Source: Actinomadura sp. GC306
Lineage (GTDB): Bacteria; Actinomycetota; Actinomycetes; Streptosporangiales; Streptosporangiaceae
NCBI RefSeq assembly: GCF_004348665.1
Contig: NZ_SMKM01000006.1
Location: 1-64,000 of the forward strand
Length of the DNA: 64,000 nt
Direction: 5' to 3'
Part shown: positions 3,809 to 23,384 of the stretch, in pieces
How the letters are laid out: every line of letters starts with the position of its first letter
Position numbering within the stretch: position 1 is the first letter of the stretch
Notes under the pieces: model-generated
Database searches by the model: none
What the model was told of the DNA's origin: nothing
What the model saw: the letters and a program-made list of their open reading frames with translations, nothing else
Position numbers and translations under genes: made by a program

Positions 3809-3835
3809 GACACACTCCTTCTCGGTAATCGAAGA

Positions 3836-4542: not shown

Positions 4543-5030
4543 TCATGCCGGCTGCTGCACGCGGGTGCGATTGCTTCCACCGGTTCGCCGTAGGACCCCC
4601 GACGACCGCAACCACATCGGTGCCCTCCACCTCTGCCGGCGCCGTTCGCGGACCTCCCCGGCCCGGCGCAGCAGCCGGTACATGGTCGAGATCGAGGACA
4701 AGTAGGTGCCCTCGTCGAGCAGTACCGCCCACACCTGGGCGGGGGACCTGTTGACGAAACCGTCCGAGCGCAGGACGGCCAGCACCGGCTCCTGCTCGGC
4801 CGCCGTCAGCGACGGCCGGATGGGGCGCCGGCCGGCGGTGCGGCCCCAGCGGCCGCGCAACGGGGTTGCGCCGGCGGTGACGAGAAGACCCGGGACGCCG
4901 GGGACGTGCTCGCCGGCCAGTACCCACGCCCGCGCGCGTGCGGACGAGCGGGCCTCGCGGATCGCCCGTAACGCTCGCGGTCCGGCCTGGGCTAAACGCC
5001 TGCGCCTGCGGGGCTCCTCGACCGCCGCAT
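4543..5030 (-). pseudogene. Truncated IS3-family transposase (OrfB 5' part)
   Basis: The reverse strand reads the N-terminal part of an IS3-type OrfB: LTAAEQEPVLAVLRSDGF, RSPAQVWAVLLDEGTYLS, then STMYRLLRRAGEVRERR, which in intact transposases leads straight into the DDE catalytic core. Here the frame degenerates after ERRRQ and the DDE core is missing. The upstream part (about 4861-5030) stays open and arginine/alanine-rich but is not recognisable. No terminal inverted repeats were found. This is a dead insertion-sequence fragment inside the island. Confidence 0.6.
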
Positions 5031-5644
5031 GCCTGGCACGGGGCGGCAGACGGCTCCGGCTCCGGCTGGCCCGCTACTGGACCTGGAGCGGCCTGATCGC
5101 CGCCGCGATCACCCGGCTGTAGATGCTCCCGGCGCCCTGACCAGCACGAGCCGTCCCATCAACACCAGGAAGGAGAAAACCGGGGCCCGTGGAACCCCGC
5201 CCACCCGACGCGACAGGCGGGCCCAACCGGTGACCCGCCACCGAGAACCAATAAACGGTTGGGTCGCTCCGCGACCCAACCAACCTCACGAAATATCGAG
5301 GCTGAGCGCGTGGCGATCCAACGAAATGCTCGCTCCCCCCGCACTGGTGATCACATATTGTCGTGCTGTTTTTACCTGGCGGACTGCATGGGCGGACTCG
5401 TTTGTCAACAACGTAGGATGCTCACTTTTTGATAAAAACTGGTAAGGCTGCTGTTCGTGGCTGTTTGTGATCATTCCGTTTCCTAGACGATCTTGCGTGG
5501 CGTTCATGGGTCGGCCTACTCTCCATGTGTTCGAAGCGACGTATGAGCTGGCGGGCACGGATTGGGGTGTTCGAAACCCTGTGCCATGCGTGTCTCCGGC
5601 GTCGACGGTGTGTTGATGCGAGTCGGTGTCGGAGGCGATTTTCT
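5031..5644. other. AT-richer leader region before the RHS gene
   Basis: No gene supported. It contains a strong hairpin (5257-5281, listed separately) and a clearly AT-rich stretch at about 5330-5520 (TTTTTGATAAAAACTGG near 5428) that probably carries the promoter of the RHS gene. Open frames here (for example ATG at 5525, in frame with the RHS gene) lack a ribosome-binding site. Confidence 0.5.
5257..5281. terminator. Perfect 11-bp hairpin with 3-nt loop
   Basis: GGTTGGGTCGC, loop TCC, then GCGACCCAACC. The stem is perfect and GC-rich. There is no T-run, so it is either a factor-independent terminator of the actinomycete type or an insulating hairpin upstream of the RHS gene. Confidence 0.55.
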
Positions 5645-8600
5645 GTGCGCGGCGTTCGTTTCTTCGAGCGGTTGTCGAACCGGACGACGGCGCGTTTCAC
5701 CGCCGTTGTTGTCGCCGCTTCTCTGGTCCTCTCGCTTGGGGCCAGCGGAAATGTTGTTCCACCCGGAGCTATGTCGGCGGCGAACGTCGAAACGCCTGTG
5801 CAGCGTACGGGCTCGGCCAAGGGCAAGTCCCACCGCGTGACGACAGGGCAGACTGCCGCTGGCAACGACCGGACAAAGCGGATGCCCCGTCGGCCCAAGG
5901 GTGCACCGGGCCTGGAGAAGCCGCACACGCCCAAGGTCGTGAAGGACGTCAAGGGCAAGCGGGCGAAGCCCCCGCAGACGCGGCGGATATCCGAGCCGGA
6001 GCCGGTCGAAGTCACGGGGTTCGATCCGAAGAAGAGCGTTGAAAGTCCGGCGCGGAGAACGCGCTTCGGCACGCAGTACAAGAATCCTGACGGTACCTGG
6101 ACCGCGAAGTACAACACGCGTCCGGTCAACTACCAGGCTTCTGATGGGTCGTGGCAGCCGATCGACTCCACCCTGACGCCATCAGGCAACGGGCGCTTTC
6201 GAAACAAGGCGGACGGGAGCCGTGTAGACCTCTCGGCGCGTGCGGCCGGTACGGACTTGGCGTCCATCGAACTGGGGCAGGGAAAACGGTTCGGGTTCGG
6301 AGTGGAGGGTGCCGGCGATGTGACCGGTCAGGTCAAGGGCGACTCCATCCTCTACCAAAGAGTGCGGCCGGACGCGGATCTCAAGCTACAGGTCCTGAAT
6401 GGCGCCAGTGTCAAGGAGGAGATCGTCCTCCACTCCCGGGATGCGCCCTCCGAGTGGGTGTTCCCGCTGCGCACCGAAGGGGTGGCGCCACGGCTGGCGG
6501 CCGACGGCAGTGTCGAGCTCCTGGATGGTGCCGGGATCGTTGTCGCGCACATTCCGCACGGGTTCATGGTCGACTCCAAGATTCACCCCAAGTCCGGTGA
6601 TGCGGCCCGCTCGGACGAGGTGAACTACGCGCTGGAGCAGCGTGGCGGCAGCTGGGCCCTGAAGGTGTCCGCTGACCGCGAGTGGTTGGAGGACCCGGAC
6701 CGGGTGTACCCCGTGACGGTTGACCCGACCGCCGTGTGGAACTACGGAGCCACGCACGACACCTATGTGCAGACCGGTTATGGTTCTAGCCCTTACGCGG
6801 AGGCCGAACTCAAAGCGGGAACCTACAACGGTGGTTCCACAAAGGCAGCGACCTACCTGGCGTTCACTCAGGTCGACAATGAGCTTGCCTACAGCAAGGT
6901 CTACGACGTCAACCTGAACATCTACAACTGGTGGTCGTATTCATGTACGAAGACCCCGGTGACCGTGCACGGGGTAACCCAGCGGTGGGCGCAGTCCGAA
7001 CTGGCGGCCTATCCGGGCCCCAACTACGGATCGGCGCTCACCTCCAAGAGCTTTGCGAACGGGTTCATCGCGGAGGGGGCCGGGAGCAGTGCGTGCCCGG
7101 CCAAGTGGCAGAGCATCGACCTTGGGTCTGCTGGTGACAGTCTTGTCCAGGGGTGGGTCAACAAGACCAAGCCCAACTACGGCCTGACGGTGCGTGCATC
7201 GACGAAGAGTAGTTACGGATGGAAGAAGTTCGGAAGCCGCGAGTCGGCGAACGGCCCCTACCTGGTCATCACCTACAGCCCGTACAACGCGGCCTACGCG
7301 TTCGCCGAGAACCCGCCCAAGGTAGACCCGCCTGTACTGAACAACCAAGCCGGCTATGTGAAGGTAAAGGTCAAGAATAAGGGCCATGACGCCTGGACGG
7401 CCTCCGCCGGCTACCGGTTGACCTACGGTGTATTCGACAAATCGGGTAGACAGATTTACCACAGGCCCGCCGAGACGCCGGTCCCCCAGACCGTGTCCAA
7501 CGGCGAGACCGTGACGATAAATACAAAGATCAATCCGCTGCCGCCGGGTACGTGGACGATCAAGTTCGACATGCTGAACACCAGCTCGGGCGTGCTGTTC
7601 TCGCAATGGGGAGTCCCGCGCACCGCGGCGCTGTCGGTGACGGTCCCGGACATCCCATCGAAACTGAAGGAGATGTTCCCCAAGAACAATCACCGAGTCG
7701 GGACCCTGCGCCCTGAGCTGTTCGCCGAGGCCGAATCGGTAGACGCCTGGCCCTCGGCGAACGTCAATTATCAGTTCACTATATGCGCCCCGCCGTGGAT
7801 CGACTGGGAATGGTGTGAAAGTTCTCCCTGGCAGGACACTCCGAAATGGACCGTCCCGGCGGGAAAGCTGCAATGGGGCAAGGAATACTACTGGATGGTG
7901 CGGGTCAGCGACAGTGGCGGAACCGCTACTGACAGCCCCTTGTACAAGCTGCTCACCGCTGTGGAGCAACCCGCCATAACCTCGCATCTGGCGAGCCCGG
8001 CGTCGGATCAGCAGGAGTTCGACCATCAGGCTGGCAACTACACCACCACGGTCACCGATGCCGCAGTCGCGAACGTGGGTCCGCCTCTATCGGTGGTGCG
8101 GACCTACAACAGCCTTGACCCACGGACTTCGCACGCTTTCGGTGCCGGATGGACGACCCGGTTCGACATGAAGGTCGTCCCGGACGCCGACGGGACCGGC
8201 AACGTGGTCGTGACTTATCCGGACGGCCAGGAGGTCCGGTTCGCCAAGAACACCGACGGCACGTTCACCCCGCCGCCCGCCCGGCAGGCGACATTCGCCG
8301 CGGTGACGGGCGGCGGATGGAAACTGATGGACAAGGGCTCGACCAGTTACCTCTTCGATGACGCCGGGAAGCTGACCCGGATCACCGACCACAGGGGTCG
8401 TAGCCAGAACCTGCAGTACGGGACCGATGGGAAGCTGTCCAAGGTCACGGTCCCCAGCGGACGGTCACTGTCCTTCACTTGGACGGGAGGCCATGTAACC
8501 GCCGTCAGCACCGATCCCGTCAACGGTGAAGCGCTGACATGGACCTATGGCTATACCGATGACACCTTGACGAAGGTGTGCCCACCTACCTCGGCGACCG

Positions 8601-11600
8601 AGTGCACAACCTACGAGTACGAGGACGGCTCTCACTATCGAAGTACGGTTCTCGACGACAATCCGACCTCCTACTGGCGGTTGAACGAGTCCAGTGGCCG
8701 GGTGATCTCCAGTGCCGTCGCGGGGAACCTGGGCACTGACAATGGTGGAGCCACCAGCCTCACCCTGGGGCGGCCCGGTGCCCTGGCCGGGACCTCGGAC
8801 AGAGCGGTGGGATTTAACGGATCCGACAGCCGTGTACGGATGCCGGACCGCTACATCAGCCGGGAAGGCGGTTATCTTGCTGTCGAGGCCTGGTTCAGGA
8901 CCACCGGACAGGGCGTGATCCTGTCATACCAGAACGCCATGTACGGGTCTCAGGCCAACAAGTACACCCCGGCTCTTTACGTCGGTGCAGACGGCAAGTT
9001 GCGTGGTCAGTTCTGGAACGGCAGCAATACCAACGTGCTCACCTCCGCCGGTGCGGTCAACAACGGGCAATGGCATCATGCAGTCCTGTCGGGTCAGGGA
9101 AGTTCGCAGACCCTCTACCTGGATGGCCAGAAGGTCGGCACCCTCAACGGGACGATCGACCACCTTAATGAGCCTTATGTTTATATAGGAAGTGGATACA
9201 CCACCAAGGGGTGGGCTCAGACACCGCCCACTTCTGGCTGGTTCGACTTCGCCGGTGATCTGGACGAAGTAGCCATCTACGACAGGCCGCTGGGGCTGCC
9301 GGCCGTTCGCGCGCACTACGATGCCCGGCACACAACAAAGCAATTGACCAAGGTGACCAAACCGAGTGGCCGCGTCCAGGCCGTGAACGCCTACGACGTC
9401 GACACCGACCGGTTGGTCGAGCATGTCGATGCGAACGGAGGCACCTGGGAGATCCGTGCTCCGGTCTACTCCGGGAAGGTCGACGACCTCGAGCGGACCA
9501 TCGAGGTCAAGGACCCGCGGAACGGGATGCTCAAGTATGTGTACGAGCCGTTGCGCGGGAACAGGCTCATCTCCGAAACCGACCAGCTGGGCAAGACCAC
9601 AACGTACGCCTACGACACCAACGGCCAACTCGGCAAGATCACCGATGCCAACGGGAACGAAACGAACCTGTGGTTCGACGAGCGCGGCAACAAACGGTAC
9701 GAACAGCGCTGCGCCGATGTCGATACCTGCCATGCCCAGTACTGGAACTACTACCTCAATCCGGACGACGCGTTCGATCCGCGGAATGACCAGCTGACCC
9801 AGCGCGCAGACGGCCGTACCGTCAACCCGTATGCGAGCCCGTACACCACCGTCTGGGAGTACGACGTCCACGGTCAGCAGACCGCGGAGCTCTGGCCGGC
9901 GACGGACGACTATCCCTTCCGAGGCATCGCCTACAGCTACACCGACGGCACCGAAGCCGCGGAAGGCGGCGGCACCCAGCCCGCCGGGCTCCTGAAGCGC
10001 CGCAGCAAGGCCAATGGCGGGACGGCCCAAACCTATGCCTACAGCTCCGCCGGAGACCTGCTCTCGACGACCGACGCGGCCGGCAAGGTCACCAGGTTCG
10101 GATACGACGCGATCGGCAGGGTGATCAGCAGCACCGAGATCACGGATGCACATCCCCAGGGCGTCACCACGACCTATGGATACGACGGACGTGGCCACCT
10201 CCTGCGGGTGACCAAACCCGCGGTGGAGAACGAGGTCAGCGGCGCCACCCACACCCCTGACACTCGCTTCTCCTACGACGCCGACGGCAACAAGCTCACC
10301 GAGACGTTGAGCGACCTCACCGGCGGGGATCCCGAACGCCGCACCACCTACGGCTACAACGCCCACGGCCAGGTCGAGACCATCACTGACCCGGAAGGCG
10401 GCACGGAGGGCTATGAGTATGACGCCACGGGCGCGCGCACGAAACTGACTGACAAGAGCGGTACGCGATATGCCTTCGCCTACGACTTGCGCGGTCAACT
10501 GACCACCCGGACCTTGCAGGAATGGGTGGGGAACCCGGACGACCCGAGCCCGGCCACCGATGTGATCCTGGACTCCTACGCCTACGATCCCGGCGGCCGC
10601 CTGGGCTCCCACACCGACGCTATGGGACGTACGAAGGCCTACACCTACTACGGCGACGACCGGCTCGCCCAGGTCATCGCCACCGGGGTCAAGGTCAACG
10701 ACTCTGCCACTCCCAGGGACGTGGTGGTAGAAAGCCGCTCCTATGACGGTGCCGGTCATCTTGTGTCCCACGTGACGGGCGGAGGCAAGCACCGTACCGA
10801 CTACGAGTACGACCAGGTCGGGCAACTCATCGCCGAAACCGTCGACCCGGACGGGGCCGCCCGCCGTACCGACTACGACCTTGACCCCGACAACAACGTG
10901 ATCAGGACGGTCCGGAGCGGTGCGGACTCCGAACGCCAGGAGACCGCAGATTACGGGTACGACCCGATGGACCGGCCCGTCCGGCAGTCCATCGAGAATG
11001 GCGACGACAGCGTCGTCACGTCCCTCACCCGAGATCAGCGAGGGCTGGTCACCCAGATCGTCGACCCGCGAGGCAACGCGGTTGGAGTCGATCCCACCAC
11101 GTACACCACCACAATGCGGTACGACGCCGCCGGGCAACTGAAGGAGCGCCTCGAACCCGCTGTCCAGGTCGAACGCAACGGAGAACCGGGCGTCACCACC
11201 CGTCCTGCAACCCGGTACGGATACAACACCGCGGGCGAGCAGACTCACGTGACTGACCCCGAGGGCCGCACCGTCACCAACTCCTATGACAAGGCCGGCC
11301 GCCCAGTCTCGACACACCAGCCCTCGTACGACCCGCCTGTGGGTTCGACGATCATTCCCACCATCACCATGGAGTATGACGCGGCCGGTCGGCTTACCGA
11401 GCAGACCGACGCCCGAGGCGGTACGACCCGCCTCTACTATGACGCGCTGGGACGACAGACCCGACTCGAAGAGCCCCAGTTGGCCAACGAGAACCGTCCC
11501 GGCGAATGGAAGTTCGAGTACGACCTGGCTGGCGAACAGCTGTCGGCGACCGGCCCCACCGGGATCCGGACCGAGGCGACTTACGACGACCTCGGCAGGC

Positions 11601-14600
11601 AGATCACCCATACGGAAATCGACCGATACCCCGTACCGGCCGCCTACACCACCGAGCTCGCCTATGACGACGCCGGGAACCTCACCTCACGCACCCGCCC
11701 GGCCGGGGACAGCACCGAATACACCGTCAGCGGAGCCGGGGACATCACCGCGGTCACCAACTCCCGCGGCCACACGACCGAACTCGCCTACGACCTGGCC
11801 GGACGACTGACCAAGGTCACCGATCCTCTGGGCGTCAGCGTCATCGCGGAATTCGACCACGCCGGACGACAGATCAAAACACGCGACGTCGACGCGGCCG
11901 GAAACACCATTCGCACCTACGGATACGAGTACGACGCAGCCGGCAACCGGATCAGTGAGACGAGCCCCGAAGGCCACACCACTTACCGGGCTTACGACGC
12001 CCTCGACCGGCTCACGACACTCACGGAACCGGTCTCGGCGACCGGCACCATCGAAACCGGCTTCGGCTACGACGCCACGGGGCAGCGCACCCGCCTGACC
12101 GATGGCCGGGGCAACTCCACCATCACCACCTACAACACCCTCGGCCTCCCGGAAAAGACGATCGAACCGTCCACCGCCGCGCACGGAGACAACGCCGATC
12201 GCACGTGGACCACCAGCTACGACGCCACGGGCAACCCTGTCCACGAGGCCAAGCCGGGCGGCGTCACCGTCACCCGCACCTTCGACCAGCTGAACCGGCT
12301 CACCGAGCAGACCGGCACCGGAGCCGAGGCACCGACACTGGAGAAGCGGTTCGGCTACGACCTGGCCGGACGCCGGTTGCGCATCTCCGGCCCCGTCGCA
12401 GATCTCTTGTTCACCTACAACGACCGCGGACAACTGCTCAGCAGCATCAGCCCTGGAGGCAAGACCGCCCATTTCGCCTATGACGCCAACGGCCGCCTCC
12501 AGCAGCGCACCGATCCCGCGGGCCAGACCTCTCTGACCTGGAACGGTGAGGACCAGATCGTCACCACCAGCGACGCCATTACCGGGGGCTTCTCCACACG
12601 CACCTATGATGACGCCGGTCGCCTCAACGCCATCAGCACACAGAACGGCGGAAACACCGGAACCCGGACGTACGGCTACGACGATCTCGACCGGATCACC
12701 TCCGACGAACTGACGTCCTCCACCGGGACGCCCCTGGCGACCACCTCCTACGGCTACGACCTCGACGACAGGCTCACCGAGAAGACCACCACCGGAACCA
12801 TCGGAGCGGGCACGAACACCTACGCCTACGACCGGGCGGGCCGCCTCACCCAATGGGTCGCCCCGTCCGGGACGGAGACCGACTACGAATGGGACGCCTC
12901 CGGTAACCGCACCAAAGCGGGTGCCACCACCTACACCTACGACGAACGCAACCGCCTGACCTCCGACGGAACGAGCGGCTACACCTACACCGGCCGCGGC
13001 ACGCTGAAGACGATCGGCGGCACTGGCCAGAAGTTCGACGCCTTCGACCGGCTGATACAGGAAGGCACGGTCGACTACCGCTACGACGCACTGGACCGCA
13101 TCGCCACACGAACCGGTGACTCCGGCGCGACGAACTTCGTCTATGCCACACAGGAGAACGACGTCACCGCGGTCACCGATGACACCGGGATGGTCACGTC
13201 CGGATACCAGCGAACTCCCGATGGCGAACTACTCAGCGTGAAACAGGATGGCCAGGCTTACCACGCGCTGTCGGATCGCCACCAGGACCTCACCGCGCTG
13301 TACGACCCGGCCATCACCGCTCTCGCCGGCTCCACCGCCTATGACCCCTACGGCGGAACGATCGCACAGGCCGGCACGGGCACCCTTCTCGGATACCAGG
13401 GCGAATACACCGACCCTGCCAGCGGCCGCGTCAACATGCACGCCCGCTGGTACACCCCCGGCACCGGTAGCTTCGCCAGCCGCGACGACTGGACCCTCGA
13501 GCCCGACCCCAGCGTCCAAGCCAACCGCTACACCTACGCCAATGCCGCTCCGCTCAACTACACCGACCCAACGGGACATGCAGCCGCCCTCGCCTTCGTG
13601 GGCCTTGCGGTCGCCCTCGCCGGGGCACTGGCCGTCTCCCAGGCCTACCAGCAGAATCCGCCGACTTACACCTGGCCGTCCTGGGACTGGAGTTGGAGGT
13701 GGCCATGGAGTAGGAGTGCCGAGACTCCTTACAGCGTGTGGGACGTTCCCACCTTCCCCCCGTACTCTCCGGTAACTCCATGGCGCGGCACAGGAGGCGG
13801 CGGTGGAGGTGGAGGCGGCACCGTCGGCGCACTTGCGCGGCCGGGCATGGCACGGCCTGGAATAGCCCGTCCGCGACCGCCGAGGCCGTCACCCGCACAG
13901 ATCCAGCGGACCCTCGCTCGCAAGGCCAGGGACACCTACGCCCCTCGCCCCCCGTCCCGCCCCGGAGTCGGACAGAAGGTCATCGACAAGATCCGCGACA
14001 ACGCGGAGAAGGTCGTCAAGGTCGCCACCGGCGCCCAGAACACCGCCGGAACGCTCAGGGACGTGCAAAACGCACTCGAACCCCAGAACGCACGACCGGA
14101 CACCCCCTCAACAGATGGGCCCAGCACCACCACGGATGGCGATGACGACGGCTGTGTACACAAAAAGGACTACGGGAGGTTCATCGGTGACGGGGGTTAC
14201 CATACGCCAGCCCACGCTATCTACTGCAAGCCTACTGATGTCGATAAGGGCAGTCCGGCAGAGACCACCATTTTTCCTCCAGGGTGGCCGCAGGACGAAC
14301 ATGGACGCCCAACCAATTCTCCGATGGACCCGTTCAGGGGAAAGGCGTACAAGTATGCTCGCTGCCATCTGATCGCCGCCAGGCTCGGGGGGAGCGGTAA
14401 AGATCCGAATAATCTCGTGACCTGCGTGCACAATCCGACTAATAATTCTGGAATGAAAAGACTTGAAAGTCAAGTAAGAAAGGCAGTTAAGGGGGGGCAG
14501 ATCGTCGACTACACCGTAATTCCAATCTATCGAAGGGGTGACATTACTCCCGACGCGTTTCGTATGATCGCCAGAGGGAGGAGTCGCGATGGTGCTCCGG

Positions 14601-14683
14601 GGATTAGCTTCGATAAATGTGTATGGAATAGTCCGTCTCCGATAAATGGAAGAGTGGCTGATGGTGTCCATTGTAGACCTTGA
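5645..14683 (+). CDS. RHS-repeat polymorphic toxin with C-terminal nuclease domain
   Basis: A secreted giant of about 3012 residues. The GTG at 5645 has GGAGG 9 bases upstream and leads into FERLSNRTTARF then a hydrophobic span, a signal peptide; ATG at 5525 is a longer alternative. Domains in order: a DNRLRE-type domain (about 358-548, PTAVWNYGATHDTYVQTGYG), a DUF6531-like RHS opening (about 815), a LamG/concanavalin-like insert (about 1000-1220), tens of YD repeats (about 1230-2585), the RHS core end RYTYANAAPLNYTDPTGH (about 2640), one hydrophobic span, a polyglycine linker, and a tip (about 2835-3012) with RCHLIAARLGGSG and NNLVTC, resembling Endonuclea_NS_2 DNA/RNA non-specific nucleases. 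The RHS shell encloses and delivers the tip. The tip is much AT-richer than the shell. A SUKH immunity gene overlaps its 3' end. Confidence 0.9.
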   Translation: MRGVRFFERLSNRTTARFTAVVVAASLVLSLGASGNVVPPGAMSAANVETPVQRTGSAKGKSHRVTTGQTAAGNDRTKRMPRRPKGAPGLEKPHTPKVVKDVKGKRAKPPQTRRISEPEPVEVTGFDPKKSVESPARRTRFGTQYKNPDGTWTAKYNTRPVNYQASDGSWQPIDSTLTPSGNGRFRNKADGSRVDLSARAAGTDLASIELGQGKRFGFGVEGAGDVTGQVKGDSILYQRVRPDADLKLQVLNGASVKEEIVLHSRDAPSEWVFPLRTEGVAPRLAADGSVELLDGAGIVVAHIPHGFMVDSKIHPKSGDAARSDEVNYALEQRGGSWALKVSADREWLEDPDRVYPVTVDPTAVWNYGATHDTYVQTGYGSSPYAEAELKAGTYNGGSTKAATYLAFTQVDNELAYSKVYDVNLNIYNWWSYSCTKTPVTVHGVTQRWAQSELAAYPGPNYGSALTSKSFANGFIAEGAGSSACPAKWQSIDLGSAGDSLVQGWVNKTKPNYGLTVRASTKSSYGWKKFGSRESANGPYLVITYSPYNAAYAFAENPPKVDPPVLNNQAGYVKVKVKNKGHDAWTASAGYRLTYGVFDKSGRQIYHRPAETPVPQTVSNGETVTINTKINPLPPGTWTIKFDMLNTSSGVLFSQWGVPRTAALSVTVPDIPSKLKEMFPKNNHRVGTLRPELFAEAESVDAWPSANVNYQFTICAPPWIDWEWCESSPWQDTPKWTVPAGKLQWGKEYYWMVRVSDSGGTATDSPLYKLLTAVEQPAITSHLASPASDQQEFDHQAGNYTTTVTDAAVANVGPPLSVVRTYNSLDPRTSHAFGAGWTTRFDMKVVPDADGTGNVVVTYPDGQEVRFAKNTDGTFTPPPARQATFAAVTGGGWKLMDKGSTSYLFDDAGKLTRITDHRGRSQNLQYGTDGKLSKVTVPSGRSLSFTWTGGHVTAVSTDPVNGEALTWTYGYTDDTLTKVCPPTSATECTTYEYEDGSHYRSTVLDDNPTSYWRLNESSGRVISSAVAGNLGTDNGGATSLTLGRPGALAGTSDRAVGFNGSDSRVRMPDRYISREGGYLAVEAWFRTTGQGVILSYQNAMYGSQANKYTPALYVGADGKLRGQFWNGSNTNVLTSAGAVNNGQWHHAVLSGQGSSQTLYLDGQKVGTLNGTIDHLNEPYVYIGSGYTTKGWAQTPPTSGWFDFAGDLDEVAIYDRPLGLPAVRAHYDARHTTKQLTKVTKPSGRVQAVNAYDVDTDRLVEHVDANGGTWEIRAPVYSGKVDDLERTIEVKDPRNGMLKYVYEPLRGNRLISETDQLGKTTTYAYDTNGQLGKITDANGNETNLWFDERGNKRYEQRCADVDTCHAQYWNYYLNPDDAFDPRNDQLTQRADGRTVNPYASPYTTVWEYDVHGQQTAELWPATDDYPFRGIAYSYTDGTEAAEGGGTQPAGLLKRRSKANGGTAQTYAYSSAGDLLSTTDAAGKVTRFGYDAIGRVISSTEITDAHPQGVTTTYGYDGRGHLLRVTKPAVENEVSGATHTPDTRFSYDADGNKLTETLSDLTGGDPERRTTYGYNAHGQVETITDPEGGTEGYEYDATGARTKLTDKSGTRYAFAYDLRGQLTTRTLQEWVGNPDDPSPATDVILDSYAYDPGGRLGSHTDAMGRTKAYTYYGDDRLAQVIATGVKVNDSATPRDVVVESRSYDGAGHLVSHVTGGGKHRTDYEYDQVGQLIAETVDPDGAARRTDYDLDPDNNVIRTVRSGADSERQETADYGYDPMDRPVRQSIENGDDSVVTSLTRDQRGLVTQIVDPRGNAVGVDPTTYTTTMRYDAAGQLKERLEPAVQVERNGEPGVTTRPATRYGYNTAGEQTHVTDPEGRTVTNSYDKAGRPVSTHQPSYDPPVGSTIIPTITMEYDAAGRLTEQTDARGGTTRLYYDALGRQTRLEEPQLANENRPGEWKFEYDLAGEQLSATGPTGIRTEATYDDLGRQITHTEIDRYPVPAAYTTELAYDDAGNLTSRTRPAGDSTEYTVSGAGDITAVTNSRGHTTELAYDLAGRLTKVTDPLGVSVIAEFDHAGRQIKTRDVDAAGNTIRTYGYEYDAAGNRISETSPEGHTTYRAYDALDRLTTLTEPVSATGTIETGFGYDATGQRTRLTDGRGNSTITTYNTLGLPEKTIEPSTAAHGDNADRTWTTSYDATGNPVHEAKPGGVTVTRTFDQLNRLTEQTGTGAEAPTLEKRFGYDLAGRRLRISGPVADLLFTYNDRGQLLSSISPGGKTAHFAYDANGRLQQRTDPAGQTSLTWNGEDQIVTTSDAITGGFSTRTYDDAGRLNAISTQNGGNTGTRTYGYDDLDRITSDELTSSTGTPLATTSYGYDLDDRLTEKTTTGTIGAGTNTYAYDRAGRLTQWVAPSGTETDYEWDASGNRTKAGATTYTYDERNRLTSDGTSGYTYTGRGTLKTIGGTGQKFDAFDRLIQEGTVDYRYDALDRIATRTGDSGATNFVYATQENDVTAVTDDTGMVTSGYQRTPDGELLSVKQDGQAYHALSDRHQDLTALYDPAITALAGSTAYDPYGGTIAQAGTGTLLGYQGEYTDPASGRVNMHARWYTPGTGSFASRDDWTLEPDPSVQANRYTYANAAPLNYTDPTGHAAALAFVGLAVALAGALAVSQAYQQNPPTYTWPSWDWSWRWPWSRSAETPYSVWDVPTFPPYSPVTPWRGTGGGGGGGGGTVGALARPGMARPGIARPRPPRPSPAQIQRTLARKARDTYAPRPPSRPGVGQKVIDKIRDNAEKVVKVATGAQNTAGTLRDVQNALEPQNARPDTPSTDGPSTTTDGDDDGCVHKKDYGRFIGDGGYHTPAHAIYCKPTDVDKGSPAETTIFPPGWPQDEHGRPTNSPMDPFRGKAYKYARCHLIAARLGGSGKDPNNLVTCVHNPTNNSGMKRLESQVRKAVKGGQIVDYTVIPIYRRGDITPDAFRMIARGRSRDGAPGISFDKCVWNSPSPINGRVADGVHCRP

Positions 14684-15215
14684 GCGCCTGGTTGGTCCGC
14701 CGAGCCAACCGCCGATCAGAGTCGACTGGCCTGCTTTTGAAGCGGCCTTGGGTCTGCAACTCCCCAGTGATTACAAGGATGTGTTTGACGTCTATCGAAC
14801 TCTAGAGTTCGGTCAATTTGTTGGTGTCTTTCATCCTGGATCGGATGCTGAGGAGAACCGACATGACACGGTGGCGACGCTGAGTCCTTTAAAGTACATG
14901 ATCGACGAAATGGGTGGACTGGAGGACGTTGCCGCCGTCGACGGAGAGGAAGAAAGAGTTCGGTTCGCCGTCTACCCTGAGCCTGGTGGTCTCTTGTTGT
15001 GGGGGAGTACTTGGAATGGAGATCTTTGTCTTTGGCATACAATCGGCGAGGATCCAAATTTGTGGCCGACGGTCATCACGGATAGCATCGTCTTTTGGGA
15101 ATATCCGAAAGGTATGACGGAATTTCTGGTGGGAGTCATGGATCAGACGATTCGGTGTCCAATCTTTCCTGACGACTTCCCGAGTAGCCATCGTGTGCGT
15201 CAAATAGCTGACTAG
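14661..15215 (+). CDS. SUKH (SMI1/KNR4) family immunity protein
   Basis: About 184 residues, starting inside the 3' end of the RHS gene. WPAFEAALGLQLPSDYKDVF is the SUKH N-terminal signature (helix then 'LPxDYk'), followed by a YPEPGGLLLWGSTWNGDLCLW strand region. SUKH proteins bind and block nuclease tips of polymorphic toxins, so the expected role is protection against the adjoining nuclease in the cytosol. ATG at 14661 has GGAAGAG 6 bases upstream; ATG at 14646 would add five residues. Base composition is distinctly AT-rich, like the toxin tip and unlike the shell, suggesting that tip and immunity gene arrived together. Confidence 0.82.
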   Translation: MVSIVDLERLVGPPSQPPIRVDWPAFEAALGLQLPSDYKDVFDVYRTLEFGQFVGVFHPGSDAEENRHDTVATLSPLKYMIDEMGGLEDVAAVDGEEERVRFAVYPEPGGLLLWGSTWNGDLCLWHTIGEDPNLWPTVITDSIVFWEYPKGMTEFLVGVMDQTIRCPIFPDDFPSSHRVRQIAD

Positions 15216-15543: not shown

Positions 15544-17553
15544 TCACTTGGACTCCACCGGGTGGGGACCGGACTCTGCCCGGTCGCTCAGGCGTTGGCG
15601 TTCTCGCGCGATCCACTTCTTGCCTTCCGCGGCGATTCCTTCCATGAGGGTCAAGGCGTGGCGGAGGTTGGCGGCGTCCCGCGTCACTTCTGACACGACG
15701 CCGCTTGGCTCATCCTGGAGTCTCTCCGCTTCCGGAGCCATTGCCTCGACGTGGATCTCCTCACCGTTGACGAGGGTGAGTCTGAAGTCGTGTTCATCAT
15801 CGTCGGTCTGGCGTACCCGTACGGCGGCGACCGCCTCGTAGCGGTAGTTGGTCCGGTACCGATCGTGGAAGGTGCCTTGCGCGAAATCGAGTTCGGCGTT
15901 GAGTTGCCGTACGCCGTCTGTGGTGAGGAGGAAGAGGAGCAGCTTGTAGCGCTCGTAGCGCCAGGGGCCTTTGCGTACGCGTGCGCTTCTGCCGGGGAAG
16001 GCGCGCGTCTCGATGAACGCGTGGGAGATCAGGCCGCTCATCGTTAACCGGTAGTGGCGTAGTGCCTCGTCCAGGACCATCTTCCGGTCGCAGTCCAGCC
16101 AGGTGGCCATCTGGCGGTCGTCGGGTTTGTCGGCGAGCTTCGCCTTCCAGCGCTCGAAGGCCGCTTCGCAGTCCTTCAGCGTCCGTGCCTGCTCGGCAAG
16201 GTCGGCCGCATATCGCCTGCGTCTCAGGACGATGCGCAGCCAGGCGTGGGCGGCGATCACGCCGGCCGGCAGTGCGAAGGCGGCCGTGCGGACCGCGCTC
16301 AGTGGGTCGCTCCGTACCGCGGCCTCCAGCGTCCACGTGATCCCCGGGACGAGGAGGGCGAGACCGAGGACCGTCAGCAGTATGGAGGCCGGGGGAGTGG
16401 CGAGTTCCTGCCGGTAGTTCCACAGCGTGCCGTTCTCCCACCGTGTCCTGACGTCGCTGACCCGGTAGCGGATCAGCCAGGCGATCCGTTCGACGCCGAT
16501 CCGCTGCTCCCGGTAGACGTCCACGATTTCGTCGCGCAGGCACCCGCGGATCCCCGCCGTCTCGGCCAACCAGACGGACCTGCTGGTGTCACGTGGAACG
16601 TATCTGGCGAAGTAGTGGTCTAAACGGCGGCCCACGTTGTCGGCGAAGCCGCCGGAGGGGGCGCTTCGCGTGCGCGTCCTCGGCGCATATTGCGCATCCT
16701 TCCTCCGGCGTCGCTCGATGCGGAAGCGCCACTCCACGCCGCCCTTTGCGGCGCAGTAGCCGCCACCGACGCTCAGCAGGTACGCGAGCAGAGCGACCGC
16801 CTGAAGTTCTCGCGCCAGAAGGTAGGCGATGTGGATCGCCGCCGCGATCAGAACTGCGGTCGACACTAAAGCCTGAACCCAGGTGCCGGTTGTGAGGTCC
16901 GGTGGTCGCGGCTCCCGGACCCGCGGCCGGGCTGGTTTCGGCTCGAAGAACTTCCAGACACGGTCGGCTCGGCCGTTCGCCATCTGGTTCTGCTGGGCGC
17001 TGTCCAGGGCGCGGCGCCACATCCCGTCTTCGAGTGGCCCGTCCAGGAACAGCTGCAGGTGCCGAAGGATCATGGAGCGTTGCGGGTCGGCAAGCCCGTC
17101 GAGGTCCTTGAGCAGGGGACGCAGGTCCTCGTCGGGTTGCTGTGCGGACTGCAGCAGCCGGCATAGGGTCCGCACTCCGTCTGCCCAAGCGTCGTCACCG
17201 GTGACGTTGCAGGTCCCCGGTGCCCGATGCAGCATCGTGAGGTGCTCCTGCGGTAGCTCGTGCCGGGTTCGGCCGCTGACGAGGGCGAGCTGCCAGTGGA
17301 AGCAGACCCGGCTGCCGGTGAGACCGCCGTCCATGACGGCTCGGCCGATGAGCTCTCGCGCCTTACCCGGTATGCCGCCCGCGAGCAGCCGGACGCCGAT
17401 TTCGAATAACTCCGCGGACGATGCGCCTGCGGGGGTCTCGTAGACCTGAACGTCGCCGTGCACGACTCCCGCCTGGACCCCGACGTAGGCGGAATCTCCG
17501 GCGTAGTTCGTCGTGGTGCCTTCCGGTGCGGGGGTGGTGGCCTGCGCGGTCAT
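15544..17553 (-). CDS. Membrane protein with N-terminal VQAG/VHG motif (putative effector)
   Basis: 669 residues, not matched to a family I can name. Residues 16-37 carry an NYAG ... VGVQAGVVHGDVQVY motif, then a helical soluble region (to about 215), two membrane spans (about 223-271), a basic loop of about 115 residues, two more spans (about 388-408 and 420-440), a charged coiled-coil-like region (about 445-500) and a C-terminal cytosolic region ending in a small beta-rich part (YEAVAAVRVRQTDDDEHDF). ATG overlaps the stop of the upstream nucleosidase gene by ATGA, so the two are translationally coupled. Context and topology suggest a membrane-acting effector triggered by the upstream protein; the function itself is inference. 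Confidence 0.7.
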   Translation of the reverse strand: MTAQATTPAPEGTTTNYAGDSAYVGVQAGVVHGDVQVYETPAGASSAELFEIGVRLLAGGIPGKARELIGRAVMDGGLTGSRVCFHWQLALVSGRTRHELPQEHLTMLHRAPGTCNVTGDDAWADGVRTLCRLLQSAQQPDEDLRPLLKDLDGLADPQRSMILRHLQLFLDGPLEDGMWRRALDSAQQNQMANGRADRVWKFFEPKPARPRVREPRPPDLTTGTWVQALVSTAVLIAAAIHIAYLLARELQAVALLAYLLSVGGGYCAAKGGVEWRFRIERRRRKDAQYAPRTRTRSAPSGGFADNVGRRLDHYFARYVPRDTSRSVWLAETAGIRGCLRDEIVDVYREQRIGVERIAWLIRYRVSDVRTRWENGTLWNYRQELATPPASILLTVLGLALLVPGITWTLEAAVRSDPLSAVRTAAFALPAGVIAAHAWLRIVLRRRRYAADLAEQARTLKDCEAAFERWKAKLADKPDDRQMATWLDCDRKMVLDEALRHYRLTMSGLISHAFIETRAFPGRSARVRKGPWRYERYKLLLFLLTTDGVRQLNAELDFAQGTFHDRYRTNYRYEAVAAVRVRQTDDDEHDFRLTLVNGEEIHVEAMAPEAERLQDEPSGVVSEVTRDAANLRHALTLMEGIAAEGKKWIARERQRLSDRAESGPHPVESK

Positions 17554-18698
17554 GACAGGCCTTGAACCAGGGCGATGACGCTCGCCACTTCCGCGGAAAG
17601 GGCGGCCACGTCCCCGACCAGCCCGCGCACCTTCTTCAGGGCCAGCGTTACCGCACCGACGTCCTGCGGATCGGTCGTCTGCAGTGTCTCGCGGGCGGCG
17701 GCGAGTTCTGCCTCGGCCGCGCGGTAGGTGTCATCATCCAGGTGTCCCGCCGTCCGAGCCTGCCGAAGCCGGAGGGCGAGTTCGGCGATCACCGCGGCGG
17801 GATCGGTGGGGGCTCCGTGCTCACCGGACACCCGGATGCCTCCGTGCACGTGCCCCGCCTGCACGACCACCCGTGCGTTGTCCTTGGCGACGTTGCGGAC
17901 GGTCTCGCTCATCATCGGTGTCCCTTTCGTGTCGGCTGGTTCGCGCTGTTGCGGTTCCTCGGCGGACAGGGTTTCGGCCAGTGCGGTGGTGAACGCCGCA
18001 GCGTTCGCCACCGCCCGTGCCTGCCAGTGCTCGCGGTCGGTGGTCTCCTTGGTGCCGTCGGCGTGGTCGCTGACGCCTCGGATCACGACCACCGGCAGGG
18101 ACCTGTTGAGGTGCGCGGCCTGAGCCACGCCGGCGCCTTCCATCTCGATGGCGCGTGCGTCGTTGTAGTTCTGCCGGATCCAGTGCGCGTGCGGCGAAGT
18201 CGTCGAGTTCAGGACGACTTCGCCTGCTGCGATCGGCCCGAAGTGCACCGTGGGCTCTTGGCCATCGAGATCGTCCGCCCATGCGCGGTTACGAGCCACA
18301 TGCCGGGCGATCTGGTCGGCGCCGTGCGACACCTCCCAGACACGGGGGCGGCTCTTGAACCCGTCGTCCTCGCTCGTCCCGCCGTGGAAGGCATAAATGT
18401 GGGTGGCCACCACCACGTCCCCGAGGGCGATGTCGGAGTGCAGGGCCCCGGCGACCCCTGCGAACAGCAGCGCCGCCGGGGAGAACTCGTTGATGGCGCG
18501 TTCGGCCAGTACCGCTGCGGACTGGTTGCCCTTCCCGACGAGGCCCAGTGCGATGCGTGCCCGGCCGTGCGCCAGCCGGCCCACCTCGAATCGGGTGCCC
18601 TGCGGGTGGCGATACAGCCGCGGCTTGCCCAGCTTCGCGCGGACGGATTCGTACTCCACGTCCAGCGCCGTGAGAACGACGATCGGATTGCCGCTCAT
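17550..18698 (-). CDS. MTAN/PNP-type nucleosidase fused to a VQAG-motif helical tail
   Basis: 382 residues. Residues 1-245 form a phosphorylase-superfamily domain: PIVVLTALDVEYESVR, GLVGKGNQSAA, FAGVAGALHSDIALGDVVVA, AIEMEGAGVAQAA (substrate-binding Met-Glu) and VIRGVSDHAD (catalytic Asp), so it may cleave or only sense a nucleoside such as a methylthioadenosine or ADP-ribose derivative. Residues 270-290 hold NARVVVQAGHVHGGIRV, nearly the same motif as in the downstream membrane protein. A helical domain of about 80 residues follows (AELALRLRQARTAGHLDDDT ...). The ATG at 18698 overlaps the NUDIX stop (ATGA); the open frame continues upstream but that part is the NUDIX gene in another frame. 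It looks like a sensor in a nucleotide-centred conflict system. Confidence 0.82.
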   Translation of the reverse strand: MSGNPIVVLTALDVEYESVRAKLGKPRLYRHPQGTRFEVGRLAHGRARIALGLVGKGNQSAAVLAERAINEFSPAALLFAGVAGALHSDIALGDVVVATHIYAFHGGTSEDDGFKSRPRVWEVSHGADQIARHVARNRAWADDLDGQEPTVHFGPIAAGEVVLNSTTSPHAHWIRQNYNDARAIEMEGAGVAQAAHLNRSLPVVVIRGVSDHADGTKETTDREHWQARAVANAAAFTTALAETLSAEEPQQREPADTKGTPMMSETVRNVAKDNARVVVQAGHVHGGIRVSGEHGAPTDPAAVIAELALRLRQARTAGHLDDDTYRAAEAELAAARETLQTTDPQDVGAVTLALKKVRGLVGDVAALSAEVASVIALVQGLS

Positions 18699-19627: not shown

Positions 19628-19957
19628 ATGGAGGGACACAGTGGAGCGCCGTTCAGTTACGCCGAGACCAGGCCATACGAGGTGGCCGGGTCACTGAGTG
19701 AACTGCAGGGACCCGAGCATGGCGTCGTGGTGCTTCCGCTGGAGTTGGCGTGGGGTGGGCGAACCGAGTTCGACCTCGATGAGGACTACGATCGGTCGGC
19801 CGTATACAAGATCGTGTTGGAGGAGGGCGGTGCGGAGCATCAGCGGCGCCTGATCAACGGTCGGCTGCTGGTGGAGCACTGGGACGAGATCCTCCCGGCA
19901 CGTCCAGTCCGAGCCCTGTGGGAACGGCGCTTCCCTCAGCTTCGGCATGCCGCCTGA
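19628..19957 (+). CDS. Small partner (putative antitoxin) of AbiEii-like protein
   Basis: About 109 acidic residues (EFDLDEDYDRSAVYKIVLEE; ending WERRFPQLRHAA), no family recognised. Its TGA overlaps the ATG of the nucleotidyltransferase gene by one base (TGATG), the usual arrangement of an antitoxin translated just before its toxin. GTG at 19622 is an alternative start two codons earlier; no strong ribosome-binding site is visible, so initiation may be close to leaderless. The central stretch VVLPLELAWGGRTEFDL is beta-rich; no helix-turn-helix is evident, unlike AbiEi antitoxins. Confidence 0.6.
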   Translation: MEGHSGAPFSYAETRPYEVAGSLSELQGPEHGVVVLPLELAWGGRTEFDLDEDYDRSAVYKIVLEEGGAEHQRRLINGRLLVEHWDEILPARPVRALWERRFPQLRHAA

Positions 19958-20589
19958 TGGATCGGTTCCAGTTCCGGTTGGTCGGCATAGCGCTGGATGT
20001 CGTCGGTGACCGGGGTTTCGTGCTGGGCGGTGGGCACGCCGTCCAGATGCACGGCATGGGCGCTCGTCCTTCAGAGGACATCGACCTGTTCTCTTCTCGA
20101 CGAGGAAGCCCGGAGCAGGTCGCCGACGACGTCATCGCCGCCTATGCGAGCCAGGGACTGCGACCTGAAGTGGCCCGGCGCACCCCGGACCTCGTCCAGA
20201 TGACGGTCACTGACTCAGATGGCAATGCCTGCAAAGTGGATCTCGGGGTGTTCTGGCGGGCGCACGCTCCGGTGATTCTGGAGGTCGGCCCGGTACTGCA
20301 CCCTGACGATGCCGTGGCCGGCAAAATGGACGCTTTGTTCAACCGGTGGGCACCGCGCGACTTCCTGGACATCGATGCGGTCTTGGCCAGCGGACGTTAT
20401 GACCATGACCGCCTCTTGGCCGTGGTCGCGGAGCACAACCCGGGCTTCGACATTGCCTTGTTCGCCGAGTCGCTCTCCTATCTGCACCGCATCCCTGACC
20501 GGGACTTCACGGCCTACGGCGTGCCCGTTGCGCAGATCGCAGTGATGAGAGACCGGTTTGCCGCCTGGGAACGAATGCTTGCACCGTAG
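19957..20589 (+). CDS. AbiEii/AbiGii-type nucleotidyltransferase (putative toxin)
   Basis: 210 residues with the nucleotidyltransferase fold: FVLGGGHAVQMHGMGARPSE, then DIDLF (metal-binding Asp pair), KVDLGVF (third acidic position), and AGKMDALFNRWAPRDFLDIDAV, the conserved 'K.dAl..R...RDflDl' helix of the AbiEii/AbiGii toxin family. Such proteins transfer nucleotides to tRNA or other targets and cause abortive infection or growth arrest. The start at 19957 overlaps the stop of the upstream small gene. It is the last gene before the right end of the island. Confidence 0.8.
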   Translation: MDRFQFRLVGIALDVVGDRGFVLGGGHAVQMHGMGARPSEDIDLFSSRRGSPEQVADDVIAAYASQGLRPEVARRTPDLVQMTVTDSDGNACKVDLGVFWRAHAPVILEVGPVLHPDDAVAGKMDALFNRWAPRDFLDIDAVLASGRYDHDRLLAVVAEHNPGFDIALFAESLSYLHRIPDRDFTAYGVPVAQIAVMRDRFAAWERMLAP

Positions 20590-20872: not shown

Positions 20873-20916
20873 TTCACACCGAAGAGGTCACTGGTTCGAA
20901 CCCAGTATCGCCCACC
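20873..20916 (+). repeat. attR: 44-bp copy of the tRNA-Val 3' half
   Basis: Identical to 2158-2201. It lacks the acceptor 5' strand and D-arm, so it is not a functional tRNA. It defines the right boundary of the island; sequence to its right (20917-21200) has no recognisable gene. Confidence 0.93.
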
Positions 20917-21200: not shown

Positions 21201-23384
21201 CTAGTGAGATCGGCCGCGCTGCCGGGAGCCGCGACTTGGGAGACGTCCATCGGCGATGGCGCGTTCTCTGAGAGAGCGTAGGCTGACGCGCTGGCCCATA
21301 GGATCAACGATGTGCCAAGCAGCCATGCCGGAGCAGTTACTGGTCCCCTTTACCACTGCGCCGGCATCATCGACCTTATCGAACGGGGTTCCCCCGACGG
21401 CTCGGAGGATGATGCCGCCTTCAGCGTCGATCTCGGCCCAGTGATCAGCGCCCTGGTGGGTCATCACAATGGAAGTGCCGGGTGCGATGACGCCCGCGTC
21501 GACCATTTTCGCGACGTGGGTCGTGCGGCGACGCCGCGGTGGTGTGCCTGAGGTCTCACTGGGGGGCCGGTCGAGGGCCTTAGGGTCCCAGATGAGGGCG
21601 CACAGCGTGAGCATCAGCCGCTGGCGGGTCTCCACGATCGTCATCATCTTGGCGTTCACCGCGAAGCGGTGCATGAGCTTTTGCAGATGATGCCTCTTGA
21701 TAAACGTTTGAAGCTCGGGCTTGCGTTCTCCGTAGCCGGGGGCTAGGACTCCAAGCAGCGCGTTATGGCTGGAATAGTGGGGCAACTTCTCGGCGAGTGG
21801 CAGGTCATTGAGGCTGGAGTTGGTGCGTTTAGGAAGGAGTCCCAGCGCACCGAGTTGGTTGCGGCGAGCCCGGAAGGCGACCGGGTCGGGAATCTCAGCG
21901 GCAACGCGGCCGTGGTGCTTGGCCCAGAGGTGCTCGATATCGTATTTGTCGCTGCTCAACAGCTCAACGGTGTCGCAAGGATGTCCGATTCCGGTTTCGA
22001 CGAACGCTGTGAGCCGCGCCAGGACGTAGCGGACCTGATGCGTGTTATTGGGGCGCAGTCCGAACGTCGAGGACTCCGAGAGCTCCAGCGGATCACCGGC
22101 CATCATTTCGGCCAGGCGCCCCATCAGCTCCTTGGAGGTCTGAACGCCGCGCAAGGAAGGAACAAGGTTGCCGTAGACAAGGTCGCCGACCTCGGACGGA
22201 CTGACAGGCCGGTCCCGGAGTATCTGAAGGACATACCATCGGTCAATGAAGTCGCAAATCGCGCGCCCTTTTTCAGCGGCTTCCGAAAGGGTATCGGTCG
22301 GCTGGATGACCGCAAGAACAGCTGCAAGCTGCTCGGATAGGCCGTTGCGCTCGTTGAAATAGACTGTCTCATACCCTTCCTTCAGCGAGGTTCTGGCGAC
22401 AAGGAAGGGCTTTGCCCGAGTGGCGATGTCCAGCAAGTTCTCCACGAATTCAAAGTAGTCGTGTTCCTTGCGTAGACCGAGGCGTTCGCTGTTCTTTCTC
22501 GCCCATACGTTGAGATTGGCTTCGATGTGCGACGTCTCGTCCTGGTCAGCGTAACGGGCAAGTAGTACGCACTTGATGAACTGGCTCGCGGTATCGGTGT
22601 CGGAACGGTCGATCGTCAGCTCGGCCAGCATCTGCCGCCAGCGGCGGTTCAACTCATCTGCGTTCTCCCCGACGTGCGAGAGTAGATGGCTCTTGAGAAG
22701 GTCCACCGGGGTCAGACGGGCACCCCGATCATTCATCGTCTCGAACATGCGGTAACCATGGTCGGCATCAGTCGCCTGGATCCCGGCGAGCATCACATAC
22801 TTCAGAAGCCATGGCACGAAGTCCTCGTACTGATCGCTTTCGAACAGCTCATGAAGATGCTCGGTGATCTGACGGCTTCGCCGGACCAGGTTGCGAACTG
22901 ACAGGGAGTCTCTGGGGGCGATATCCCAGTCGCGTCCGTCACCGAGGACGCGAAGCACCGGCGCAAGCTCGGCGATGCCGATGGTCAGCGTACGATCGCG
23001 ACTGAAGACCGCACGGTCCAGTTCTGGCAGGCTGCGCCGCAGCTGCAGTTCTTTGGCGATGTTGCGCAGCTGCAGTAACAGTAGATGCAGGGTGATGAAC
23101 CGCTGTTGCCCGTCGACAAGAAACCGCCTTTTCCCGCGTGCTCGCGGATCCTCCTCGTAGTACACGAACGGTCCAAGGAAGTAGGACGAAGCAGGAGACG
23201 GCCGCCGACGTCGCTGACGATCGGACTCGTAGTCGCGGAACGCCTCACGCAGATCCATGACTAGCGTACGGACCTCCTCCGCACCCCAGGTGTACTCACG
23301 CTGGTAGTAGTCGATCTCGTAGGAGACGTTGTCGAAGAGTTGCTCCAGACTGAACACGTCCGCGCTGACCCCGTGACCGCGCAT
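21201..23384 (-). CDS. DUF262/DUF1524 protein with C-terminal RAMA-like domain
   Basis: 727 residues. The N-terminal DUF262 domain (ParB/GmrS-like) shows YEIDYYQREYTWGAEEV, SSYFLGPFVYYEE and FLVDGQQRFITLHLL. The DUF1524 HNH-like region (about 480-600) shows YDIEHLWAKHH and RNQLGALGLLPKRTNSSLND. After about residue 625 comes HVAKMVDAGVIAPGTSIVM ... GGTPFDK ... CSGMAAWHIV, which reads like a RAMA domain, the modified-DNA reader attached to restriction and methylase proteins. Together this suggests a type IV modification-dependent nuclease acting on foreign DNA. It lies just outside attR, so it belongs to an older accessory block. A CTAGGC/GCCTAG hairpin (21186-21204) overlaps its stop. Confidence 0.8.
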   Translation of the reverse strand: MRGHGVSADVFSLEQLFDNVSYEIDYYQREYTWGAEEVRTLVMDLREAFRDYESDRQRRRRPSPASSYFLGPFVYYEEDPRARGKRRFLVDGQQRFITLHLLLLQLRNIAKELQLRRSLPELDRAVFSRDRTLTIGIAELAPVLRVLGDGRDWDIAPRDSLSVRNLVRRSRQITEHLHELFESDQYEDFVPWLLKYVMLAGIQATDADHGYRMFETMNDRGARLTPVDLLKSHLLSHVGENADELNRRWRQMLAELTIDRSDTDTASQFIKCVLLARYADQDETSHIEANLNVWARKNSERLGLRKEHDYFEFVENLLDIATRAKPFLVARTSLKEGYETVYFNERNGLSEQLAAVLAVIQPTDTLSEAAEKGRAICDFIDRWYVLQILRDRPVSPSEVGDLVYGNLVPSLRGVQTSKELMGRLAEMMAGDPLELSESSTFGLRPNNTHQVRYVLARLTAFVETGIGHPCDTVELLSSDKYDIEHLWAKHHGRVAAEIPDPVAFRARRNQLGALGLLPKRTNSSLNDLPLAEKLPHYSSHNALLGVLAPGYGERKPELQTFIKRHHLQKLMHRFAVNAKMMTIVETRQRLMLTLCALIWDPKALDRPPSETSGTPPRRRRTTHVAKMVDAGVIAPGTSIVMTHQGADHWAEIDAEGGIILRAVGGTPFDKVDDAGAVVKGTSNCSGMAAWHIVDPMGQRVSLRSLRERAIADGRLPSRGSRQRGRSH

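Follow-up and report, generated by a model that had tools for sequence, protein, structure and literature searches.

Does a RAMA domain at the end of a DUF262–DUF1524 protein read a modified base, or does it serve the enzyme in another way? The question is raised by a gene on the reverse strand of Actinomadura sp. GC306 (contig NZ_SMKM01000006.1), at positions 21201–23384 of the 64,000-nucleotide stretch of DNA analysed here, which we call the window. The role of RAMA as a reader of adenine methylation is disputed. RAMA fused to other nucleases has been noted (PMC11037411), an author note refers to work on RAMA–HNH fusions (PMC12707154), and a RAMA–DUF3780 fusion has been described in BREX-related systems (PMC12839542). 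For the combination DUF262–DUF1524–RAMA, or its link to type I systems, we found no description in the open-access literature, preprints excluded.

The open reading frame is intact, starts with ATG and is present as a single copy in its genome. Its parts are laid out as follows.

21201–23384, reverse strand: whole gene of the putative DUF262–DUF1524–RAMA nuclease, 727 amino acids; stop codon at 21201–21203
22680–23348, reverse strand: DUF262/GmrSD_N NTPase domain, amino acids 13–235 (Pfam and motif counts)
22680–23348, reverse strand: motifs in the DUF262 domain, QR at 28–29, DGQQR at 91–95 and FxxxN at 214–218
22068–22679, reverse strand: alpha-helical linker, amino acids 236–439 (AlphaFold2 secondary structure)
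21759–22067, reverse strand: DUF1524/GmrSD_C HNH (His-Me finger) region, amino acids 440–542, with H485, N509 and N522 (Pfam and structure)
21525–21572, reverse strand: basic linker of low confidence, amino acids 605–620 (pLDDT below 50 at 605–618; charge)
21246–21524, reverse strand: RAMA domain, amino acids 621–713 (Pfam, structure matches and profile to CcrM)
21369–21377, reverse strand: codons of K670-V671-D672, at the positions of the CcrM phosphate contacts S315 and H317
21324–21326, reverse strand: codon of M687, at the position of CcrM W332 and MPND W135

Pfam places PF03235 (GmrSD_N/DUF262) on amino acids 13–235 (E = 1.2e-25; 91.3 bits against a cut-off of 33.2), PF07510 (GmrSD_C/DUF1524) on 440–542 (E = 0.0038; 17.6 bits, below the cut-off of 23) and PF18755 (RAMA) on 610–708 (E = 1.1e-8). 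The last search had been proposed in an earlier note on this DNA; its score of 35.5 bits is 0.3 bits above the cut-off of 35.2, and in a genome-wide search the protein scores 39.3 bits. Across a family alignment (E ≤ 0.01), DUF262 and DUF1524 were matched in 23/23 members and RAMA in 21/23, the other two being relatives that end near residue 604; DUF4357 was matched weakly in two of the 23 (best E = 0.0053). The AlphaFold2 model of the full protein has a mean pLDDT of 83, which is low at the linker 605–618. That a DUF262–DUF1524 body and a RAMA domain share one chain, as the earlier note had claimed, is thus confirmed by Pfam, by AlphaFold2 fold matches and by the intact 727-residue frame.

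The body of the protein carries the features of the GmrSD family, a DUF262 domain with QR, DGQQR and FxxxN motifs and a DUF1524 HNH domain. Q28, R29, D91-G-Q-Q-R95, H485 and N522 are invariant in all 54 distinct sequences of our alignment; N509 is kept in 50 of them and is Asp in four, and the FxxxN motif is kept throughout except for one Tyr. When the AlphaFold2 model of the body was compared with the PDB, the matches covered residues 8–602 and were led by DndI (Z 20.9 over 508 residues) and SspE (Z 20.5), ahead of BrxU (Z 11.3). In TgvAB, which are relatives of GmrSD, mutation of the DUF262 and His-Me motifs abolishes protection (PMC11411939). Because the same motifs are intact here, nuclease activity of the 727-residue protein is likely by analogy. 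The earlier suggestion that such a body points to a nuclease against modified DNA holds in part: this is one known mode of DUF262–DUF1524 enzymes, but the nearest folds, DndI and SspE, sense the host's own phosphorothioate mark.

Modelled alone, the RAMA part (AlphaFold2, pLDDT 86) aligned with MPND (Z 12.2, 84 residues, 2.0 Å) and CcrM (Z 12.2, 86 residues, 2.2 Å) in VIA-align, and the next family was SAND at Z 6.0. Residues 621–713 of the full model gave similar values against the PDB (MPND, Z 12.7, 1.7 Å; CcrM, Z 12.5, 2.2 Å), and a profile of 19 RAMA parts retrieved one PDB sequence only, CcrM residues 274–360 (E = 3.4e-9). The window gene is the sole RAMA match in its own genome. Among 14 control genomes the RAMA model matched only Caulobacter, through CcrM, so the model is not promiscuous; structure, family profile and control genomes together rule out a chance match. 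The earlier note had placed RAMA at residues 625–727 and named the lack of a RAMA fold match as the result that would speak against it. The fold is there, with a structural span of about 621–713, near to that placement.

What a RAMA domain touches is known from two solved DNA complexes, in both of which it meets phosphates and not bases. In CcrM, Ser315, His317, Asn330, Trp332 and Arg350 contact phosphates of the non-target strand; W332A is inactive and S315A loses DNA binding (PMC6787082). In MPND, Ser113, Ser115 and Trp135 lie on the backbone and base contacts are absent; alanine mutants nearly abolish binding, and binding is unaffected by 6mA, in contrast to an earlier pull-down report cited by the same authors (PMC9963953). 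We number CcrM by our own count, the PDB chain number minus 8, which places Ser and Trp at 315 and 332. The positions of S315, H317, N330, W332 and R350 are then occupied in the 727-residue protein by K670, D672, S685, M687 and R706, so that R350 alone is kept among the CcrM phosphate contacts. Such contacts characterise the solved examples and form no part of how Pfam defines RAMA. The description of this RAMA as a direct reader of base modification exceeds the evidence and is not borne out as stated, since both known RAMA domains bind the backbone and K670, D672 and M687 replace the contacts here.

To place this exchange in its family, we turn to the relatives. Scanning the genome collection yielded 30 loci. 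Matches occurred in 12 of 392 Streptomyces-type genomes (the genus of G023; E ≤ 1e-60), in 17 of 296 genomes of the family of Streptosporangium canum (G871, locus L016), where two of the 17 end near residue 619 without RAMA, in 6 of 396 genomes of a phylum sample (E ≤ 1e-20) and in 6 of 99 relatives of the Actinomadura genome, the last two counts including that genome itself and RAMA-less forms. Plasmid records of four Streptomyces carry a relative at about 49% identity. A phage origin was rejected: no relative was found in phage records or in viral contigs, the latter scanned with six short exact patterns that detect close relatives only. From 57 full-length sequences three identical copies were dropped, leaving 54 in the tree; L027, L028, L031, L036, L037, L038, L040, L041, L051 and L054 had been left out as short, broken or without flanks. 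Several loci represent the same genes (L034 and L043 = L056, L039 = L058, L040 = L061, L037 = L062, and other short copies likewise).

RAMA is borne by 47 of the 54 distinct sequences, which are set apart from the rest by a branch supported at 100/99, and a body-only tree of 29 sequences agrees with this group. By sequence, the window gene thus belongs to a RAMA-bearing actinomycete subfamily of 47 members. Within it, 25 sequences make up the clade of the window gene, supported at 100/100 in either tree, and the other 22 make up a second set. We call the second set the sister grade, with some reserve: it is probably a grade rather than a clade, since a single clade sister to that of the window gene is disfavoured in the body-only tree by an AU p of 0.032, a weak value that depends on long branches.

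The two groups differ at the RAMA contact surface. At the positions of S315, H317 and W332, the clade of the window gene has Lys or Arg (25/25), Asp (25/25) and Met (25/25), and the sister grade has Ser (17/22), Ser (21/22) and Trp (22/22). The Lys-or-Arg/Asp/Met set persists in L088 and L089, which are the clade's most distant members; because D672 and M687 are kept even there, the exchange looks like a switch under selection and not like decay. Phosphate binding is still conceivable with a Lys or Arg in place of the Ser, and a "changed specificity" may be an overstatement. A simple compensation of the lost contacts by net charge was ruled out, as the RAMA core is less basic in the clade of the window gene (mean charge −0.8; −3 in the 727-residue protein) than in the grade (+1.0) and the basic linkers are similar.

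The neighbourhoods divide along the same line. GmrSD-like genes inside type I loci are already known from TgvAB; what is new is that the sister grade, with its Trp kept throughout, adjoins type I hsdM and hsdS in 13 of 21 loci (12 of 21 flanks, plus one further stretch, L092), as against 0 of 28 in the clade of the window gene. We therefore discarded a dedicated methyltransferase partner for that clade, as none lies in the 28 flanks. Among genes that lack RAMA, hsdM/hsdS accompanied 0 of 5 near relatives and 2 of 32 other GmrSD_N genes of Streptomyces. Counts are by locus with identical copies included, so that 28 loci stand for 25 distinct sequences in the clade, and the 22 grade sequences sit in 21 loci. 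The HsdM and HsdS queries were taken from neighbours of grade genes, a choice that tilts the test towards the grade; the two of 32 controls were still detected. Fisher p-values for the grade linkage are 1.7e-5 against the controls and 7.7e-7 against the clade of the window gene, and are not readable as probabilities because the rows are related. For nine representatives, the HsdM, HsdS and HsdR assignments were borne out by Pfam. The background is low: 11 genomes from the second set, about 105 Mb in all, hold 52 N6_Mtase rows, which corresponds to an expectation of about one per cent in any 20 kb.

Seven grade genes lie within about 350 bases of hsd genes. The order is hsdR–hsdS–hsdM–RAMA gene in L017 and L025, and hsdM–hsdS–RAMA gene in L022 (Streptomyces antibioticus) and L056; in L057, the sole case inside an operon, it is hsdM–hsdS–RAMA gene–hsdR with an ATGA overlap with hsdR, and in L018 and L020 the RAMA gene is convergent with the hsd genes. 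Judged by sequence identity, the hsdM/hsdS partners are swapped among effectors and the HsdM classes are several and unrelated. The effectors of L018, L020 and L025 are 84–85% identical, and the M protein of L025 is 24–25% identical to those of the other two; L025 and L017 share 66% identity in their M proteins and 45% in their effectors; between L086 and L087, effectors share 94%, M proteins 95% and S proteins 31%. The target sequence would thus vary while the effector stays, and what the grade loci have in common is the presence of an adenine methyltransferase and not a single sequence specificity. The linkage alone is no proof that RAMA reads 6mA, since RAMA-less genes of the GmrSD-like kind are found within type I loci as well, in TgvAB and in a Campylobacter case, where they are read as complementary defence (PMC11411939).

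Several other features of the RAMA-bearing loci were observed. In the type I loci L086, L087, L057 and L092, hsdM is preceded by the gene of a second, weakly HsdM-like protein of about 726–775 amino acids. Genes that resemble serine/threonine kinases, on visual inspection of their first 80 residues, lie near RAMA–GmrSD and HsdR in L055 and L057. In L015, L019, L023 (downstream of the RAMA gene) and L081, a DUF262-only protein of about 543 amino acids (442 open in L081) adjoins RAMA–GmrSD in a TgvA/TgvB-like layout. Streptosporangium subroseum (L015) has two RAMA–GmrSD paralogues, at 3666–5849 and 9980–12181, about 4 kb apart. In L022 and L034/L056 the protein reaches about 843 amino acids, with about 120 additional residues beyond RAMA.

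The gene of the window itself stands alone. A search of 22.5 kb of the window found no hsdM or hsdS near it; six N6_Mtase matches lie elsewhere in its genome. Host phosphorothioation was set aside, as dndC (TIGR03183) had no match in any of the 13 searched genomes of the clade, the Actinomadura genome included. Upstream of the gene there is an IS3-like remnant that carries an rve domain. A 44-bp direct repeat of the 3' half of tRNA-Val, at 2158–2201 and 20873–20916, looks like the attL and attR of an element of about 18.7 kb. The 3' end of the gene lies about 285 bases beyond the second repeat copy, so the gene is not cargo of the element as now delimited. In five single-contig Streptomyces-type genomes of the clade (G589, G674, G730, G861 and G630) the gene lies at most about 600 kb from a contig end, as is expected of accessory genes.

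Between the 44-bp repeats, the window holds a tyrosine integrase (2387–3808, reverse strand), an HTH_17 gene (3836–4087, reverse strand), an Rhs protein and other conflict genes. The Rhs protein (5525–15215, forward strand) has 3052 amino acids and a C-terminal end that matches PF13930 (DNA/RNA non-specific endonuclease); the gene after it has weak SUKH-type matches, and the pair is likely an interbacterial toxin with its immunity gene. At 15544–18692 (reverse strand), a gene of the PF01048 phosphorylase superfamily adjoins a 669-amino-acid gene with hydrophobic stretches and no Pfam match. The two share a similar short motif, "VVQAGHVHGGI" and "GVQAGVVHGDV" respectively, and may be the two parts of one conflict system in which this motif serves as a common adaptor. 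An AbiEii-type nucleotidyltransferase gene (PF08843) lies at 19918–20589 (forward strand), overlapped just upstream by a 111-amino-acid open reading frame with no Pfam match.

Our preferred reading, to which we assign a probability of roughly 0.55, is that the gene product is a single-chain, NTP-gated DUF262–DUF1524 defence nuclease or nickase whose RAMA docks on the backbone of duplex DNA with an altered specificity and is not a direct reader of 6mA. It builds on the domain order, the RAMA fold, the intact NTPase and HNH motifs and the subfamily with its split; by analogy with its relatives, the protein would be gated by NTP, cut DNA and serve in defence. The DUF262 domain would bind and hydrolyse NTP and thereby control the HNH domain, and the C-terminal RAMA would dock the enzyme on duplex DNA and help to choose the DNA to cut. 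The gate could be of the DndI kind, in which sensing of a host mark stimulates the ATPase and frees the enzyme from self DNA (PMC11662687), or of the BrxU kind, with action on DNA carrying modified cytosines (PMC12707154, PMC8565348). As far as the sequences suggest, enzymes of the Trp-bearing grade act alongside adenine methyltransferases of type I systems, and the specificity of RAMA would have changed along with its contact surface as the enzyme of the window gene's clade turned stand-alone.

The alternative that survives best, possible if less probable than the docking nuclease just described, is layered defence and nothing more. The enzymes would be ordinary type IV enzymes, co-located with type I systems against modified phages as are TgvAB, HEC-06 and BrxU, and RAMA would be a generic DNA-binding tail. 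There are published precedents (PMC11411939, PMC8565348), the window gene is stand-alone, and its best PADLOC model is HEC-06 (E = 5.5e-34); left unexplained is a coherent change of RAMA contacts exactly in the methyltransferase-free clade.

A DndI-like self-sensing is rather unlikely. The grade enzyme would read the 6mA written by HsdMS as "self", hydrolyse NTP and release, and would cut unmarked DNA, and the window enzyme would be a partner-free offshoot. DndI and SspE, closest to the body by fold, are both gated by a mark that the host itself makes; the linkage is to hsdM/hsdS of unrelated classes, with the effector constant while M and S vary; and the L057 gene lies between hsdS and hsdR, overlapping the latter. 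However, RAMA-less GmrSD-like genes are also embedded in type I loci (TgvAB; 2 of 32 controls), TgvAB acts from its type I locus on hypermodified phages (PMC11411939), and 8 of 21 grade loci show no hsdM/hsdS. An extended form, which we regard as doubtful, would make the grade enzymes exchangeable methylation-gated type I effectors: HsdMS of any class would write 6mA, RAMA would sense the marked or hemimethylated duplex through its backbone, and NTP hydrolysis would free the enzyme from self; DNA lacking the mark would be cut, either in addition to HsdR or in its place. The clade of the window gene would have left the methyltransferases, swapped Ser/Ser/Trp for Lys-or-Arg/Asp/Met and gained a new specificity.

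Equally improbable, in our view, is a type IV enzyme that licenses the cutting of invading DNA through direct recognition of a modified base, be it 6mA or a modified cytosine, by its RAMA domain. RAMA and GmrSD domains are both present, the sister grade adjoins adenine methyltransferases, and RAMA has been proposed as a 6mA reader, with RAMA–Mrr–NTPase and GIY-YIG–RAMA fusions noted (PMC11037411). Against this, solved RAMA domains bind the backbone without base contacts, MPND binding is not raised by 6mA, the clade of the window gene is without the contact residues, and a 6mA-cutting enzyme would endanger a host that makes 6mA, as the six N6_Mtase matches suggest for this genome. Far less probable still is a phosphorothioate-sensing effector like DndI or SspE: Tyr27 aligns, by our own count, with DndI Tyr25, for which a role is described (PMC11662687), and is Tyr in 54/54 sequences, but it belongs to the general YQR motif and so does not discriminate, and dndC has no match in the 13 searched genomes.

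The subfamily offers RAMA on a nuclease in two states, with canonical contacts and methyltransferase neighbours, and with exchanged contacts and no such neighbour. A comparison of one enzyme per group would directly test the role of RAMA, and if methylation-gated reading is true, the two groups are a natural experiment on what RAMA reads. If the clade of the window gene restricts phages, the defence repertoire of Streptomyces-type chromosome arms and plasmids would gain a new enzyme.

Among known systems, GmrSD, BrxU and TgvAB share the domain order and the QR, DGQQR, FxxxN and H-N-N motifs with the 727-residue protein (BrxU fold, Z 11.3), which differs from them by its added C-terminal RAMA. 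The embedding of TgvAB in type I loci is matched by the sister grade and differs from the window gene, which is alone. In PADLOC, HEC-06 is the best model, with the matched stretches in the body; RAMA is not matched by it. DndI and SspE have the closest body fold (Z 20.9 over 508 residues and 20.5), but an rmsd of 11–16 Å over the whole chain shows that domain placement differs; RAMA is an addition here, and the clade is without dndC in its searched genomes. The CcrM C-terminal domain and MPND RAMA have the same fold as the C-terminal domain of the window protein (Z about 12; profile E = 3.4e-9 to CcrM), with the positions of Trp335 and Arg350 kept; CcrM is a methyltransferase and differs at Ser315, His317, Asn330 and Trp332 (here K670, D672, S685 and M687). 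The same architectural principle is known from GmrSD proteins with an added C-terminal DUF4268, DUF4357 or DNA_binding_1 domain (PMC4619093), to which, RAMA not being among those named in the available text, the present subfamily adds RAMA.
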